Positions 648 through 63,571 of a stretch of 64,000 bases of DNA are shown here, piece after piece. The DNA comes from Halichondria panicea (lineage: Eukaryota; Porifera; Demospongiae; Suberitida; Halichondriidae). Below the pieces are notes generated by a model, which was not told where the DNA came from, searched no databases, and saw nothing but the letters and a program-made list of their open reading frames with translations. Where the stretch lies: NCBI RefSeq assembly GCF_963675165.1, contig NC_087392.1, positions 1,069,001-1,133,000 on the forward strand, given 5' to 3'. Numbering within the stretch: the first letter of the stretch is position 1; the number at the start of each line of letters is the position of its first letter. The translations under genes and the position numbers were made by a program.

Positions 648-3600
648 GTTGAGTCGAGTCAGAGGATGATCAGGATAGTGGGGCTCTCGGCTACCCTCCC
701 CAACTACCTGGACGTGGCTCATTTCCTCAGGGTCAATTTTTACAAAGGTCTCTTCTTCTTTGACGGGCGGTTTCGTCCTGTGCCACTCTCGCAGACGTTT
801 ATTGGGATCAAGGCGACCAATCACCTGCAGCGGCTCAGAGATATGGACGAGGTCTGCTATGACAAGGCCCTGGTCAACATCAAGAATGGCTATCAAGTAA
901 GAGTCACTATTTGTCTTAGTCATTGTTGCAATTTGGGGGATCAGTCTTTTCTTTTCCTGTTCAAATCTCACGTTGAAACTTCTATTGACATTTTTCGTAT
1001 AGAAGACGGCATGCATAATTACACTAATTTTACTGTTAGAGTGTTAGCTCTCATCACCCAAAACTAGATCAGTTTGCAATGTGCCAACATGTTCTTTGTG
1101 TACTCACAGGTGATGGTGTTTGTCCACTCTCGTAACGGTACGCTAAAAACTGCCACTGCCCTGAGGGACCTGGCCGCATCTAAAGGGGAACTCCCCCTCT
1201 TCCAGCCTGAGCAGAACCCCAAGCTAGGACTGGCACAGAAACAGGTGAATACATGGAGCCTGGTTGTGTTGTCAATAGTGATGGCCACGTAGCCTAAGGA
1301 ATGCCACGGCTATAGCAGCAGGGCTTGTTTTAATAGCTAACTTTGATTGCTCATAACTTAATATTTTGTGTGTTCAATTTCAACCATTTTCTGATTTTTT
1401 TAAAGTTTAATTAGAAAGAGACCTTTCTAATGGTATCATCAATGTTCATGTTTGGGAGATGAAAGAATTTACCTAATACCATGGATTATTATAGTCCATG
1501 GCCCAACACCAAAATTATATCAGTGTTATCACTCACACACCACATTAATTGTGTGCAGGTGGACAAGTCTCGGAACAAGCCCCTTCGTGATCTGTTTGGG
1601 GATGGCTTCAGCGTCCATCACGCGGGTATGCTGAGACAAGACAGGACTCTAGTGGAGAGACTGTTCTCTGAGGGGTTTATCAAGGTTCTGGTGTGCACGG
1701 CAACGCTGGCCTGGGGTATCAATCTACCAGCTCATGCAGTCATCATCAAGGTGAGCATACCATAAGCATAGAGGTGCATGGTTGTTTGTCCCTGTCTGTG
1801 TATGTGTGTGCCTTAGTGCTATCTTAAGTATAATATGTTACATATACTACTTGTACATACAGAATGAACCAAAAAAAACCTAATGAAAGGTTGCTAATAC
1901 AGTATAAATACACCTATCTCCATGGATACACACACCCTCAGGGCACACAGTACTGTACTTGTACATACAGAATGGCAGGTTGCTACTATTGTAACAGTGC
2001 ATGTGACTAACAGTGTATCTCCATGGATGCACACACCCTCAGGGCACACAGTGCTGTACTTGTACATACAGAATGAAAGGTTGCTACTACGTACTGTAAC
2101 AGTGCATGTGACTAACAGTGTATCTCCATGGATGCACACACCTACAGGGCACACAGATCTACAATGCCAAGAAAGGCGCTTTTGTTGACCTGGGCATCCT
2201 GGATGTGTTGCAGATATTTGGACGAGCTGGTAGACCACAGTTTGACAAGTTTGGGGAGGGTACGATCATCACGAGTCACGACAAACTCTCTCACTACCTT
2301 TCTCTGCTCACCCGTCAACAGCCGATAGAGAGTCAGTTTGTGGCTAGTCTCACGGACAACCTTAACGCTGAGGTGGGCGGGGTTCAGGTGTTTGACCCCT
2401 ACCACATTGTTACTGAGCAGTTCCCTATTGTTGTATAATTATACAACCTATCTGCTCAATAATGGAGTAGCAGTAGCCATTTGTCCAAAATATGGCTTAG
2501 CAAATGTATACCAATTTGTAATCTGTTGAATGGTAGAATCTCATTTTCCTTCAGATTGCACTTGGTAGTGTGAGCAACATTGAGGAGGCTGTTCAGTGGC
2601 TGCGCTACACCTTCTTGTTTGTGAGGATGAAGCTCAACCCTCTCATCTATGGCATCTCTAACAAGGCTAGGGAGGTACGTACACGTAGGTTACATACTTA
2701 GTGCCTGACATTCAACTAAACAGTCAAACCACCCCCACCTCCTTGGTCCTCATTCGCACACTCATTCTATATATTTACATACACACATACACATACGTAT
2801 ATGTCAACAAATTCACTCCTACGTGTATCTACCTGCACTACCCCCACACACCCCCACACACCCATCACACTCCACACACCCGTCACACTCTTCACACCCC
2901 TCACATTCCTCACACCCCACACACTCCTTACACTCCACACTCCTCACACCCCACACAGACGGACCCCAACCTTGAGGAGCACCAACGTACGCTGATCACA
3001 ACAGCTGCTGAAAAGTTGGACAAGGCCAAGATGATTCGTTTCGTCCAGCACACGGGTAACCTCCACTCTACAGACCTCGGCCGCACCGCCTCCCACTATT
3101 ACATCAAGTACGCTAGCATGGAGATCTTCAACGAGCTATTGAAGCCATACATGAATGAGGGACAAGCGCTCGCCATGGTCTCCAAATCAGAGGAGTTTGA
3201 GCAAGTCAAGGTTCGATCATAGTCAATGAGCTCATTTTGTAGTCCTGAAACATACTTCTATACCTTAATTGATAATTCATTATGCTCAATGCACAGTACG
3301 TACAACAGAGTACTTTATTTGTGTTATGTACATAATTATTATATCATAATGTGCATTGTTTTTGTTCATCCCTTGGACATGATAGTTGATGTATTGTGTT
3401 CATGATAGTTGATGTATTGTGTTCATGATAGTTGATGTATTGTGTTCATGATAGTTGATGTATTGTGTTCATGATAGTTGATGTATTGTGTTCATGATAG
3501 TTGATGTATTGTGTTCATGATAGTTGATGTATTGTGTTCATGATAGTTGATGTATTGTGTTCATGATTTGCTTTCTTGTGTCTCTTCAGGTGAGGGAGGA

Positions 3601-6600
3601 CGAGATATCGGAGCTTGAGATCCACCAATCAGTGTGCCGACTGCCAGTGCAAGGAGGGGTCGAGAACTCGTACGGAAAGGTCAACATCTTGCTGCAAACA
3701 TACATATCTCGTGGGGGGGTCGACAGCTTCTCACTGACCTCTGACCTTTCCTATGTGGCACAGGTGAGCAAAGTTATAGAGCTTGTTAGCACAGCAATTG
3801 CAAGACATACGTAAGGTATCTCTCGTTAACTTAAATTGAATTTCTGTGTGTACAACACCCAGAGGCATTGTTGACTGCCTGTAACGTCGTCTGAGAATAA
3901 AAGTTTCTTGGGGGTGGAGCATGCCCCCAGAAGGCCGTCTGATATTGCACACAGATATCCGGCTTGGCTTCCCCGTGCAATATAATTAGATACTCCATAA
4001 GTTATGAGCGTTGTGTATGTAGCATGTACCCATTTGTTGAAGACGTTGTGTGCTTCTGTTTCACAGAACTCTGGCAGGATACTCCGAGGTTTGTTTGAGA
4101 TAGTGCTACGCAAGGGCCTCCCTGTCATGGCGTCTCGACTGCTCACACTCTGTAAGTCTGTGGAGCATCAGCAGTGGGCCTTTGAGCATCCCCTCAAGCA
4201 GTTCAAGGAACGTCTCTCTCACGAGATCATCACCAAACTGGAGGATAAGAGGGTCTCTCTCAGTCGACTCAAGGACATGACCCACGAGGAAATCGGTGTG
4301 TAATATACATGACTTGTGGTAACTCACAGAATATAAATTATGGTCTGGATGATCCAACTTTCCAAACATTTTTTTTAACTTAAAATGGTCTTTTCAATAT
4401 GAAATTCTCAATTGTGTCCTTGTGAAGTTTCATGTGATCAATTTTTACCTGTTCTGAATTTTGCAGGTCACATGATACGTCATGTGAGGATGGGACGTGT
4501 TGTAGAGACCCTTGTTAGGGGATTCCCCTCTTTGTTGCTCACGGCCACCATACAGCCAATCACACGGACGGTACTCAAAGTGCGATTGACCATCCTCCCT
4601 GATTTCGAGTGGAGTGACAAACTTCACGGCATGACCTCTGACCCCTGGTGGATCTGGGTGGAGGACCCAGAGAACAACCAGATGTACCACTCGGAGTACT
4701 TCATGTTACAACGGAAGCAGGTGAGAGCTCTCAGGCATGTACGTACACGCACTAATGGTCTACCACTAATAGCACAAAAACAACACAGCTAGTACTTTAA
4801 CAGGTCGCTGTACACCCAATAAATGTTGCAAGTACATGTATATACATAATTTTACTGCACATACAGGTGTTGGCCAAGGAGCCCCAGGACCTCGTGTTCA
4901 CCATCCCGATATTTGAGCCCCTCCCCCCTCAGTATTATGTGCGTGCAGTCTCGGATCGCTGGTTAATGGCCGAATCTGTTGTCGCTATATCATTCCAACA
5001 CCTCATCTTACCGGAGCTCCACCCACCACACACGAAGCTACTCGATCTCCACCCACTTCCTGTGTCCGCACTCAAGAACCCCGCCTACGAGTCACTATTT
5101 AATTTCAAGTATTTCAACCCTGTGCAAACACAGGTGTTCCATACTCTGTACCACTCGGATACCAGCGTGTTGCTAGGCGCCCCTACTGGCAGTGGGAAGA
5201 CTGTAGCCGCTGAGCTGGCAATATTCAGGTGACATGTACAACATTGCTCAGTAATGTCCTCTCTACCCTCGTGTGACATGTATAGATCGAGCTTGTGTGT
5301 TATGTGCATGCATCTGTTGCTGTTAGCTGATTGTCAGTATTAGAGGTTCCACGAAGTATAAGTGCCTCGAAATTTTCGCGCTATACGGGTTTATATATAT
5401 ACCTGTACCTATCATGCACACACTCATGCATGTTGAGTTCAAAGGAATTTTCTGCATAAATTTCATCATTCCTAACGATGCCTGATACTTAAATTGCACT
5501 TCCCTCTCTTACAGAGTGTTCAATGAGTACCCTGGGGGCAAGGCTGTGTACATTGCCCCCCTCAAAGCGCTGGTGCGTGAGAGGGTGGCCGACTGGAGGA
5601 AGAAGCTCGAGGGAGCTCTGGGGAAGACGGTGGTGGAGCTAACAGGAGATACCTCCCCTGACATCCGCGCTGTGGAGAGGGCAGATGTCATAGTTACCAC
5701 ACCTGAGAAGTGGGACGGCATCAGTCGCAGCTGGCAAAATAGGTATAATAATATTATAGCCTCCATTCTCTTGGCAACCGAACTTCAAATTCCTTTGATA
5801 AGCTACTTAGGTTAAAGCGACTGCCAAGTAGACAATATTATATTTCCTGTAGGTCATATGTACAAGCGATGCGTGTGCTGATAATTGATGAGATTCATCT
5901 CCTTGGCGATGAGAGGGGACCTGTCCTGGAGGTGATTGTTTCTCGTACCAACTTCATAGCGTCTCACACCGGCCAGGCTGTGAGAGTGGTGGGCCTCTCC
6001 ACCGCTCTAGCCAACGCTAAGGACCTCGCTGATTGGCTGTGCATCAAACAGGTGGACACCAATTGATATGAAGTTACTCTAGATAGAAAATAATTATGCT
6101 TTTATTTATTGGTTTTATTGGGAGTAGTCTGCTCTTAGTATTATATAGCTATTATTTTCCTGATCTCAGCTCGTTTGAAGGCACATGTACACAGTAATTA
6201 ATATTAATATATATACATGTACTTTTATCTACCCCTTCCAATCTTGTACATGTGTTAACGCAGGGCGGTCTGTTCAACTTCCACCCAGCAGTGAGGCCCG
6301 TTCAGTTGGAGGTTCACATCGATGGCTTCCCTGGGAAGCACTACTGCCCTAGAATGGCTACCATGAACAAGCCTTCGTACACCGCCATTAAGACTTATTC
6401 TCCCGACAAACCTGTTTTGATATTTGTCTCCTCGCGTCGTCAAACCAGACTGACGGCTTTTGATCTTGTAACGTACGTGGCCGCTGAGGACGACACCAAA
6501 CAATGGCTGCACATACCGGACCAACAGGTGTGTGTGTGTGTGTGCGTGCGTGCGTGTGTTGTGTGTGTGTGTGTGTGTGTGTGTGTCATAGTAACCTCAC

Positions 6601-31839: not shown

Positions 31840-34762
31840 TTAGGCAGCCTCTTCATCAGTGGGATCATCCTCGCTCTCACTCCCTGCACGCACACAACAA
31901 AGACAACAGTGAATCAATACACAAGACACATACATACATACATATGTAGCTGCATGTGAGATTGCACAGCTAGCTACGTACACAAGCTCTTGGTATGGTA
32001 ACTAGAACTGATTGACTGCTCTCACCTGGGGGCTGAGAGGTGGAGGGGTCAACAGACAGGTCATCATCATCATCTTGTTCATCCTCACTCAATTCTCCAT
32101 TGTCACTCTTATTATCATCATCATCAGCTTCAGTGGTCTCCTCAGTACGCCCACGCTGTGGGGGGGGGGGGGGGTAAATAAGGTATACTTATAGCATAGC
32201 AGCAGAAGAGGATTTCCTTTACAGTGCCCCTGATCTAGAAAGTTACGTAACTAGTACAAGTATTGTAGGCGAATTTCCCAGCTTGTGTAATTGCATTTAT
32301 AAGCACAGCAAGTTTTTGAAGCTACAGGCAAGCTCTTGTAAGGGAATATCCTGGCCTATAGCTAGCCTGTAACCATAGTGCAGCTGTAGCAGTAGTGTTA
32401 TGACAACACGACAATGAAGACAATACACAATGGTGCTATTATATCCATTGCATCATACCACTCCTAATCATACGTGTAGAGAGGTCATCATGACACGATA
32501 CATGTAGGTTATAGGTTACCTACCTTAAGCACAGAGGTCAGGTAAGTTCCAAGTCCACGAATATATCCGAGTTGTGTGTCCACGATTTCAGAGATACGGT
32601 CCAGAGCTTTCTTAGAGAGGTCACTTGGGGTTTGCACCTGAACAAACAGCCGCTTATGTCAATGTACATATAAGAAGTAAAGCATAACTACCTTGTACTC
32701 TAATTAATTAACAGCTTATTACACATTTCGTAGCACAATTCTTGCATATCAAGCTATTTACTAGGTAGGGCAGCCCCCTAGCAAAGCTATTTACAGTGTA
32801 AGCTGTAAGGATATTATCAACTATCAACTTATGAGCAACTTTAACGTACGGGTTTGAGTTGAGTGTAGAGTTCCTGGGCGTAGTCATAAGCCTGAGTGGC
32901 CCCTCCCTTCAGATGGTGGGGAAGATAAGAGGTGGCACCAGAGATGGACTTGAGACCAGAATACACTCTCTCGCTCAGCTGTTTGGAATAGTCCAGGGTG
33001 GATTGAAATCGTGTGGGTTTGGGTTTGAGCCATTCGATCTGGCTGTCTTCTTCAGTCTCGTCAGGTAACCAGGTGACCTTGTTCTCCTCCCCTTGGGCCG
33101 TACGTGAGAGCATTTCCTTGACATGATCTTGAAGGTCCTTGAGTGTAGAGGAGATGTTTTCGTACTGTTGGCCGGCCTTCTCACGGAGGTCCCGAGACAA
33201 CTTGAGCTGTGAAATAGAGAGAGAAGCTGTAGGTAAACTTAGTCATAGCTCGGAGGCAACATAAAGAGTGGTGTGTCTATGTACGCCTGGTGTCACAATA
33301 GAATGCTGTTGTGGTTGTGTGTGTGGGAACAATGTAACAGATGGGCACACTCTGAACATGTGGGGTGATTAGTAGTCATAGTGATTCAATACACCTGTAA
33401 TGCAGCACATGTGATAAACTGACCCCTTACTCCCAGGAACATAACAATGAAAGGTCACTGTAGCTATAATGTAGAGAGGTCAACTTACCAGATCAACGGC
33501 TGCTTTGAGCTGCTCCAAGGAGGATTTGCTCTGCTGTTGCACACTTTGTAGACGACGCATGGAACGGTAGTAGATTCGAAGCTTGACCTTTCGAGAGAGA
33601 GTCTTGATACGTTCAATTCGGCCACTTTTTTCAACTTGTCCGAGACAATTTTCACATTTCTGGCAATTTTGGCAATCTTCCACCACAACCACATCTTCCT
33701 CGACCTCCTCAGTAACGGTGCCTTCCTCGGTGGACTTGATAGTGGTCATCTCAACCGATTCTTTGATCTTGACAGACTCTGATAGAAGCTCCTTCTCGTT
33801 TTCTTCGGCTGGGATGAAGTAATCGACAATGTTCTCAGTGGCAGTCAGGGTACGATCGAGTCCGCTACCTACAAGGATGCCAGCTCGTGTGTTGGCCACA
33901 GCAGAAGCACCTGATTGTACAGAAGAGTACAGTGCATCTTTGCCAGCTGTAATTCGAGTAGTCACAGCTTCTTTTCCTTCGGAGACTTTACTGACAATGG
34001 CATCCTTTCCTTGGCTGGCCATGGTAACAACACGGGTCTGGGAGAGTGCCTCGGTCCCTGCTTGAACTTTAGAGACAACCGCATCTTTGCTAGCAACCAC
34101 ACGACTCGTAATAGCTTCTTTCCCTTCGGAGACTTTACTGACAATGGCATCCTTTCCTTGGCTAGCCATGGTAACAACACGAGTCTGAGAGAGTGCCTCG
34201 GTCCCTGCTTGAACTTTAGAGACAACCGCATCTTTGCTAGCAACCACACGACTCGTAATAGCTTCTTTCCCCTCGGAGATGCGGGTCTTGACGGCTGTGT
34301 GCCCATCGCTGATTTTAGTGGTGATAGCATCCTTGCTCTCGGTGAGGTAGGTCATCACTTCAGCAGGCTCAGACTTGATAGCAGGCACCTTCTCCTCGAG
34401 TTTCGTCAGTTGTTTTGCAGTAAATGAGTCGACTGCATGAACTGCACGAAGAGAGGAGAAACACAACAGTCAATTCACAATACAAAACACAAGCTTTTAA
34501 TAGAATGTGGTTTAGTGCATAACTTACTTGGTTTGTCCAATTTCTTGACAAGAGGAGCTGCTGTCCCAGCAGCAAACTTTACAGAGCTTTCAATGGTGCC
34601 CAGAGCATAGTCACTGGCCCTGCTGTAGCCTTTAGAGCCTTCATACGCAGCGTAGAGAGCGTTCCCAGCAGAAGAGGCCATAGGGTTGGTGGAGAGCCAT
34701 CCGTACACTGATCCAGAGTCAGCCGGTGGAGGAGCTGGGGTTGTTTCAACAATTTCAGTCAT
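31840..34762 (-). CDS. Perilipin-like lipid-droplet protein
   Basis: Six exons join in phase: 34528-34762, 33489-34432, 32850-33206, 32524-32637, 32026-32155, 31840-31883, giving about 607 residues. The N-terminus has a PAT-like segment (SVYGWLSTNP...YEGSKGYSRASDYALGTIESS). Residues about 90-250 are 11-mer amphipathic helical repeats (SEGKEAITSRV, SKDAVVSKVQA, SQGKDAIVSKV) of the type that binds lipid droplets. A 49-residue block is duplicated almost perfectly. A Cys cluster with paired CxxC motifs (CQNCQKCENC) follows, then a helical domain resembling the PLIN2/3 four-helix bundle, and an acidic tail. Expected on the lipid-droplet surface. The Cys cluster is not a standard perilipin feature I know. 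It is divergent from the ASK-like gene. Confidence 0.8.
33965..34262 (-). repeat. 147-bp in-frame tandem duplication in the perilipin gene
   Basis: Two nearly identical 147-bp (49-codon) units within exon 33489-34432, encoding the block that starts VSEGKEAITSR and ends QGKDAIVSK. Only a few synonymous or near-synonymous changes were seen, suggesting recent expansion or gene conversion. Confidence 0.85.
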
Positions 34763-61267: not shown

Positions 61268-61663
61268 TACCGTATATCTTCTAATTTATCGGACAGCAAA
61301 AAATAATTATTCTGGAAATTGTCCGGGTATAATTGGAACAGATTTTTATAGAGCATGCGAAGTGTCCGGAATAATTAGAACAAGCAAGCAGCTGCATGCG
61401 AGCTAGCTAAGTTTAATAGAACAAGGTACGACTGAATAGTTGCACTAACTATCTAAAACTAGCTACTCAAAGCTATCTAACTGCAGCACTCCAAGTCTTA
61501 CTTGCCGTCTATGAATGGTAACTCAACTTTTCAAGGTATTGTCCGGATATTTAGAACAAATGTAATATTAAAGTACTGGAGTGTCCGTATTAGAACAACG
61601 AAAATTGCCCAAAAGAGTGTCCGGGTAATTAGAAGTGTCCGATAAATTAGAAGATATACGGTA
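61268..61663. mobile_element. Inverted-repeat element with TACCGTATATCTTC ends
   Basis: TACCGTATATCTTCTAATTT and its complement at the right bound 396 bp; about 29 bp pair almost perfectly. TA at both ends suggests a TA target, as in mariner/Tc1 derivatives. Inside, GTGTCCGG-type words recur. No ORF. Confidence 0.75.
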
Positions 61664-61785: not shown

Positions 61786-63571
61786 ATGTCGTCCCAACTG
61801 AGCAGTGAGGTGGCTTCTCAGCTGGATCTATCTGTAATCCGATACAGTCGTGTGGTGGAGGACCACAGAGTGCTGTCCCATGCCTTCAACATTGTCCCAG
61901 ACCAGGACACTGTGCTCTCCATTACAAGGTGAGCCCTGCAATGGTGCACTAAAGTTCCAATCTTAATATGTTTGCAGTTCTGGTGACAATGTACTCAATC
62001 TTCTGCTCGAGCGACCAAAGAAAATAGGTGAGAAATTTAATATTATATCCATAGGTACGTGCACAATGCACAAATGTTTAACTTCATCCAAGGGCCTCCT
62101 TTTATCCATTCTTTTGTTCTCTAGTTGCCATTGATATGAGCCATGCACAGACATCAATTCTGGAGCTGAAGCTTACTGCTATCCGTCACCTCAGTTACCA
62201 TGACTTCCTAGTGTTGATAGGAGAGGTTGCGGCCACTGGTGATGAAAGAGAGGCTGTGTTCCAGACGATGAAACACCACCTACCACCACAAGCAAAGGTA
62301 AGGGAGACCATTACTATTGTATTAAAGCCATCTTTACATTAGGTCTAGGAACGGTTACTTTGGGGTTTCATTATTTCAAAGCTAAATCTAAATGCAAGAG
62401 TAGATACTCTTGATATAGCTTTGATTCAAGGCCGATTAAATTGAATCGAGGCTACTCTTGATACTGCTGTTATCACAAAGGCTCACATGTTTAGTGTTTG
62501 CATTTTTATCTCATTCAGATTTGAGGATTCTATTGTGCCCTTAAAGGGGTGATAAGAACCACATGATTGAAAATAATTGCCCTGTGTAGGTTTTCTGGGA
62601 AGATCGTGTTGATACAATCAGGGAAGGAGTAGCCACGTCAGGTCGACTACAAAAGTACCTGATTAAGATGATGCGAGACCAGCTGTCAGAGACAGTAGGA
62701 GATCAAGTAATGGACAGTATGTTCAGTGCCCAGAGTGTAGAGGAGCAGAGGCAAATCTTCCAGTCCATGCCCCAGGACAAAGTGGAGGCTATTGTGAGGT
62801 ACGTGAACACAAGTCAATGCATTATTCAGCATTACAATTTTGTTTGTATAAATCATATCCTGTTTGTCTTTACTCTGGGAATTTTCTCACCGTACAGGGC
62901 ACTCTGTGACAAAAACAATGCATTAAAAGGTCGATCGCCAGCACAACAAAAGTATTTGTCAGACATTAGTCAGGACTTCATTGCGGACACATTACTGACA
63001 GGGTTCAATCGAGTCAGCTCAGAAGTGAGCCTCAAAGACAACTTCTATTTTAATTGGATTTGTGTTGGAGAGAGGGGGTATAATCCAGAGAGCCGTCCAG
63101 AGTTTGCCCCTCCCTACCTCAGAGAAGAGAACTTCCTGGCTCTAAGGGTATGCCATATAGTAATTACTGTTAAGATGTTTTTACTGTCATGCATGCAGGG
63201 CCTTGTCGCCAGGGTGGATGTACATACTACTTCTTTGGAGGACTATCTCAGTCTCCCTGACATACCACTTTTCAACAAAGTAAGTTGTATGAAAACACAG
63301 CCACTTGTTGCCTCACTATTCTCATGCACTGCAGATCAACCTCTCTGACATGTTTGAGTACATGAGTGCTGAAAATACAGAGCGCTTTTTCAGTCTTCTA
63401 TCTGACAATATGGCAGTTGGTGCCCGAGTGGCCTACTGGAACCTGATCCTCCACCGACTCCCCCAAAAGTGTCCCTCGCTGCAACATCTGAGCCAACTCT
63501 CCAAAGAGTTACATAAGAAAGATAGACTGTTCTTTTATTCTGAGGTGTGTGTTATTGAGAAGACCAACTAG
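61786..63571 (+). CDS. BtaA-like (DUF3419) aminocarboxypropyl transferase
   Basis: By family, the first step of betaine-lipid (DGTS) synthesis: transfer of the 3-amino-3-carboxypropyl group of SAM to diacylglycerol. Seven exons join in phase: 61786-61928, 61978-62027, 62125-62297, 62590-62798, 62898-63147, 63199-63279, 63335-63571, giving 380 residues, close to bacterial BtaA. Landmarks: YSRVVEDHRV at the N-terminus (compare YxQVWEDPRV), the SAM site DTVLSITSSGDNVLNLL, then IVAIDMSHAQ followed by ELKLTAIRHLSYHDF (compare DLNPAQ...ELKLAAIRxLxxEDF), and LSDMFEYM with ARVAYWNL near the end. No BtaB-type N-methyltransferase is fused, unlike fungal and algal Bta1. The start is the first ATG in frame; an in-frame TTG upstream is not used. 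Family assignment is fairly sure; the actual product is not shown. Confidence 0.8.

Follow-up and report, generated by a model that had tools for sequence, protein, structure and literature searches.

We analysed a window of 64,000 nucleotides from the sponge Halichondria panicea (contig NC_087392.1, positions 1,069,001 to 1,133,000; positions below are those of the window) and confirmed that it holds, at 61786-63571 of the plus strand, a real, intact and intron-bearing animal gene of the DUF3419 family. BtaA, the S-adenosylmethionine (SAM):diacylglycerol 3-amino-3-carboxypropyl transferase in the synthesis of the phosphate-free lipid diacylglyceryl-trimethylhomoserine (DGTS), belongs to the same Pfam family, and an earlier note on this DNA had read the gene as BtaA-like. 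Our results favour, with a little more belief than doubt, another assignment: judged from its sequence, the enzyme would belong to, or be sister to, a non-BtaA class of DUF3419 proteins, here called the orphan class, and would probably act on an acceptor other than the diacylglycerol of DGTS.

Seven exons joined in frame gave 380 codons and a stop. The protein matched Pfam DUF3419 (PF11899) with 191 bits (E = 4.9e-56, cut-off 28.2), residues 18-378 lying on positions 10-385 of a profile of 385; membership of DUF3419, as proposed in the earlier note, was thus borne out. Two DUF3419 matches were reported in the 131 Mb, 39-contig assembly, each of them an exon of this gene, which shows that the exon-by-exon search is able to find a multi-exon gene. 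NCBIfam held no family for the window protein, for one orphan member or for one BtaA. Searches of PDB sequences returned no DUF3419 structure (best E = 0.53; another match, E = 0.039, was to MJ0883, which we take to be a tRNA methyltransferase), Foldseek gave no match below E = 0.001, and VIA-align matched the general SAM fold only, the class I SAM fold being generic. Rfam gave no match, and the phage and viral collections held no relative apart from one BtaA-type gene on a viral contig.

The relatives compared were bacterial. A first set from plasmids comprised a BtaA with a downstream methyltransferase (L004), an unannotated BtaA (L005), an orphan protein in an operon with UbiA, a phosphoenolpyruvate (PEP)-synthase-like protein and a ligase (L003), and a member of a further class (L006). 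A first genome scan, with the single window protein as query, gave no match; a scan with a mixed alignment gave at least 588 stretches and 531 confirmed relatives, of which the 80 most like the window protein were kept, so that this sample favours the orphan class. A second, BtaA-type gene (337-381 bits) was present in 3 of the 30 genomes of that scan that were searched whole (G004, G015 and G021). Of 199 genomes drawn from a single phylum, 43 contained DUF3419. Matches below about 300 residues were excluded, the broken BtaA of L007 among them, and the 149 rows collected fell to 122 after identical rows were removed. Including the window, these comprised 26 BtaA, 89 orphan and 6 other rows; the labels were partly set by motifs, which makes the bacterial split partly circular, and the window row played no part in setting them.

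The two classes were marked by different motifs. GCN and LDxxDW were found in all 26 BtaA rows (the longer LLDxxDW in 25), while orphan rows had GDN in 77 of 89 cases, GEN in most of the rest, mostly NLSDIFEYM, and S306 and E310 without exception (89/89). The window protein has SSGDN and NLSDMFEYMS, that is, the GDN loop and the NLSD-FEYM motif of the orphan class, and lacks both GCN and LDxxDW; the "diacylglycerol-transferase signature" claimed earlier therefore did not hold in its BtaA-specific motifs. Profiles built without the window row scored the window protein at 253.6 bits (orphan), 153.4 bits (BtaA) and 102.2 bits (third class). At ten class-diagnostic columns, at least 85% conserved and differing between BtaA and orphan rows, it agreed with the orphan class at seven, with BtaA at one and with neither at two. 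Its N-terminus begins near the start of the orphan protein L003 and lacks the N-terminal extension of the BtaA proteins L004 and L005. That the window protein is not BtaA is said on account of these motifs and profiles; the trees do not carry that claim.

Gene neighbourhoods separated the classes as well. Of 25 BtaA locus records scanned (the query source L004 uncounted), 22 contained a BtaB homologue, the exceptions being L102, L149 and L150, as against none of the 108 orphan locus records scanned, 27 of which were short re-fetches of genes already counted; none was found in ten other records of the phylum draw. DUF3419 thus holds at least two well-separated classes, only one of which is tied to BtaB. 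The main orphan set, seen in L003 and L015-L094 across many bacterial phyla, has instead a recurrent operon, without BtaB, of 3-hydroxy-3-methylglutaryl-coenzyme A (HMG-CoA) reductase, UbiA, PEP-synthase-like protein, DUF3419, a membrane protein C2, GNAT and AMP-ligase. Surrounding sequence was available for 81 orphan loci, L003 and others taken from the scan ranked by likeness: the PEP-synthase-like gene was near in 67, C2 and the ligase each in 60, UbiA in 50, GNAT in 48 and HMG-CoA reductase in 40, and at least four of the six partners were present in 42 of the 59 loci having at least 3.5 kb on both sides. As for partner domains, 1 of 3 GNAT members passed the Pfam cut-off and none of 3 C2 members matched a family above cut-off.

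In the sponge, neither the gene model nor Pfam indicated a BtaB half fused to the window protein, in agreement with the earlier note, which had left two options: a separate methyltransferase completing the pathway, or another product. The search for the former found no BtaB orthologue in the host (one BtaB query, exon by exon; a fast-diverged BtaB could escape), and the latter is now the better option. All host matches to the BtaB query lay on contigs other than that of the window, and the best of three BtaB-like candidates reached 32.8 bits on a BtaB profile, compared with 245-330 bits for ten bacterial BtaB outside the model, some of which are close kin of rows within it. The best host match to the query (28% identity) was rejected as BtaB and regarded as a generic methyltransferase; its best NCBIfam models were of the BioC, ArsM and UbiE types, below cut-off in all 25 rows listed of 44.

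The trees, built with bacterial rows, lean weakly towards the orphan class without settling the placement. The 122-row tree left the window protein unresolved at its base. Two smaller trees, of 52 and 47 rows, were made from rows chosen by hand among the 122, without the long rows L100 and L160. In these the window and the orphan rows formed one side of a branch with support of 90/76 and, on the conserved core, 88/70, both below the tool's own bar. The best identity to bacterial rows was 33% overall, to an orphan protein, and 41% over a 199-column core.

Several observations weigh against the orphan assignment or against carrying the operon over to the sponge. In full-alignment trees the branch of the window row is long (2.4-2.9), and approximately unbiased (AU) tests that forced it together with BtaA did not reject that grouping (p = 0.33 for 52 rows, 0.135 for the 47-row core). 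A well-supported branch (98/90 with 52 rows, 97/95 with 47) splits the window from the main orphan set; on the window's side in the 52-row tree were 17 BtaA rows, 3 third-class rows and L151, L154 and L156 of a planctomycete subclass. The window is therefore not nested in the main operon-bearing set; its place is between this set and the planctomycete subclass. The otherwise invariant W24 (WED motif) is V in the window protein, and at residues about 175-215 the orphan stretch RWRxLFRxFFSR..GRDPxFF is replaced by KVEAIVRALCDKNNALKGRSPAQQKYL; in this region SPAQQ is a little nearer the PPQQ of BtaA and one diagnostic column is that of BtaA. With about 1.5 kb of flanking sequence at either end, records of the planctomycete subclass (L151-L154, L156) showed neither BtaB nor any of the operon partners, while main-class records of the same draw (L155, L158) had PEP-synthase-like and C2 neighbours and the third-group L160 had a weak PEP-synthase-like match nearby; the operon is accordingly weak evidence on the acceptor of the sponge enzyme. 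The C2 and GNAT partners gave no host match with one query each, without a positive control, so that this empty answer shows nothing. The members of the planctomycete subclass themselves have ASGDN with YLSDIFEWMS or YLSDIFEYMS.

These points bear first on the alternative that the gene is a divergent true BtaA, making diacylglyceryl-homoserine that would be turned into DGTS by a symbiont or by some unrelated methyltransferase of the host. The shared Pfam family, the AU tests, the branch that divides both the window and BtaA from the main orphan set, the SPAQQ region with its one BtaA-like column, and the presence of generic methyltransferases in the host all speak for it. However, the BtaA profile fits 100 bits less well, only one of ten diagnostic columns agrees, and no host candidate approached the scores of bacterial BtaB, so that we consider this alternative unlikely; a reading as BtaA proper is not supported, in view of the motifs, the profile difference and the contrast in BtaB neighbours.

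For the non-BtaA assignment, what follows on activity, transferred group and acceptor is inferred. The protein would be a SAM-dependent DUF3419 enzyme with the class I fold, in a class marked by GDN and NLSDIFEYM(S), and would transfer a 3-amino-3-carboxypropyl group from SAM to an acceptor that is probably other than the diacylglycerol precursor of DGTS, with no BtaB step afterwards. Where BtaA and orphan rows are conserved alike, at 21 columns, the window agrees with them at 20, and because these columns are common to both classes, the same kind of transfer is the most likely reaction. On the other side, no paper was found that characterises the orphan class, and the proposed reaction therefore rests on analogy. 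A SAM-binding enzyme of this fold with other chemistry, for example methyl transfer or a different small-molecule acceptor, appears rather improbable: the generic nature of the class I SAM fold, the region about 175-215 unlike both classes and the changed W24 would suit it, but the retention of 20 of 21 common columns does not. In the main bacterial set, the presence of UbiA and HMG-CoA reductase beside DUF3419 suggests a lipid-like or isoprenoid acceptor, though the window lies outside that set and the host need not share its acceptor. That the animal makes an undescribed lipid or isoprenoid ether of homoserine, by an enzyme related to the operon-bearing bacterial class, is accordingly put forward only tentatively, as a doubtful extension.

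The gene clearly lies in host DNA. Its six introns (49, 97, 292, 99, 51 and 55 bp) are all GT-AG, with phases 2, 1, 0, 2, 0 and 0. Compact genes with short introns also give the impression of a sponge. Flanking exons match MAP3K5/ASK (including DRHyd-ASK), perilipin, a tyrosine/serine-threonine kinase domain and glycosyl hydrolase 47 (GH47), so the surrounding DNA is animal; the perilipin-family exon is at 33483-34469 on the minus strand. An inverted-repeat transposon of the host lies outside the enzyme gene at 61268-61663 (no strand assigned; 396 bp, perfect 28-nt terminal inverted repeats) and ends 122 bp before the ATG. Nearly complete copies, 96-100% identical, occur at no fewer than 40 places of the assembly, the window copy counted (40 of 732 candidates were scored), and the element looks like a member of a young family of miniature inverted-repeat transposable elements (MITEs). 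A multi-copy host transposon so near the start codon indicates that the gene belongs to host DNA. Bacterial contamination was rejected because of the introns, the animal neighbours and this transposon, and the earlier description of a six-intron host gene stands. More broadly, it is very improbable that the gene was recently transferred from bacteria, or is a contaminant, and has no function in the host: the relatives compared are indeed bacterial, the collections searched being bacterial, phage and viral, but the same three features and a best identity to bacterial rows of just 33% argue against it.

The motifs are distributed over the exons as follows. Exon 1 (61786-61928; all exons on the plus strand) contains the ATG, the IRYSRVVED motif, with V for the first residue of the family's WED, and the strand preceding the glycine-rich loop. 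That loop, the SAM loop SSGDNVLNLL, with GDN as in the orphan class and not the GCN of BtaA, is in exon 2 (61978-62027). Exon 3 (62125-62297) encodes VAIDMSHAQ with the conserved Asp68, presumably the SAM-ribose contact going by the fold, and then helices. Exon 4 (62590-62798) encodes a helical insert and the GxxxKY region, its end being unlike either class, and exon 5 (62898-63147) the GRSPAQQKY and DNFYFNW regions, where SPAQQ is slightly nearer BtaA PPQQ than orphan GRDPxFF. Exon 6 (63199-63279) completes the joined seven-exon model together with exon 7 (63335-63571), which contains the orphan-class NLSDMFEYMS at the motif IV place of the fold, AYWN, the C-terminus and the TAG stop.

Other forms of DUF3419 were seen among the bacterial records. 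L006 (2917-3990), L099, L101 and L157 represent a third class with SLSDFxSY and GSG-RP-like motifs, and the L006 gene adjoins genes annotated as NAD(P) oxidoreductase, MBL-fold hydrolase and CoF synthetase. A very divergent DUF3419 was found in L100 (4043-5023; Mycobacterium riyadhense plasmid), with neighbours annotated as iron-containing redox enzyme, GNAT and RND transporter. In L007 (about 3016-4145; Sinorhizobium meliloti Ak57 pSymB) the DUF3419 sequence is broken across two frames; the incomplete table of PLSDB has no gene at that place, and a class I SAM-dependent methyltransferase lies downstream.

Compared with BtaA, the window protein thus shares the family and nearly all common columns, but has GDN for GCN, NLSDMFEYMS for LDxxDW, a shorter N-terminus than L004 and L005 and no BtaB partner that we could find. 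Bta1, known from algae, fungi and choanoflagellates, is a eukaryotic DGTS synthase in which BtaA and BtaB are fused (PMC10685587); both genes are eukaryotic carriers of DUF3419, Bta1 being compared by description only, but the sponge gene is without the fused methyltransferase half. With bacterial orphan DUF3419 it shares motifs, N-terminal start, best profile and best identity, yet it stands alone, lies outside the main set beside the planctomycete subclass, and differs at residues about 175-215 and at W24.

In one study DUF3419 served as a marker of DGTS synthesis, DGTS being found in 20 of 21 DUF3419-positive algal strains (PMC6642084), and a BtaA tree includes choanoflagellates in a paper whose main text does not contain the words "metazoa" and "sponge" (PMC10685587). 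Searches of the open-licence literature, mostly at the level of titles and abstract openings, yielded no description of the orphan class, its operon or an animal BtaA. Because only one of at least two DUF3419 classes is tied to BtaB, a DUF3419 match in an animal or a bacterium should be checked for GCN and LDxxDW before it is read as betaine-lipid synthesis. In many bacterial phyla the orphan class, with its operon, suggests a SAM-dependent product for which no description was found, and the animal gene makes the question of the orphan-class product testable in a eukaryote.
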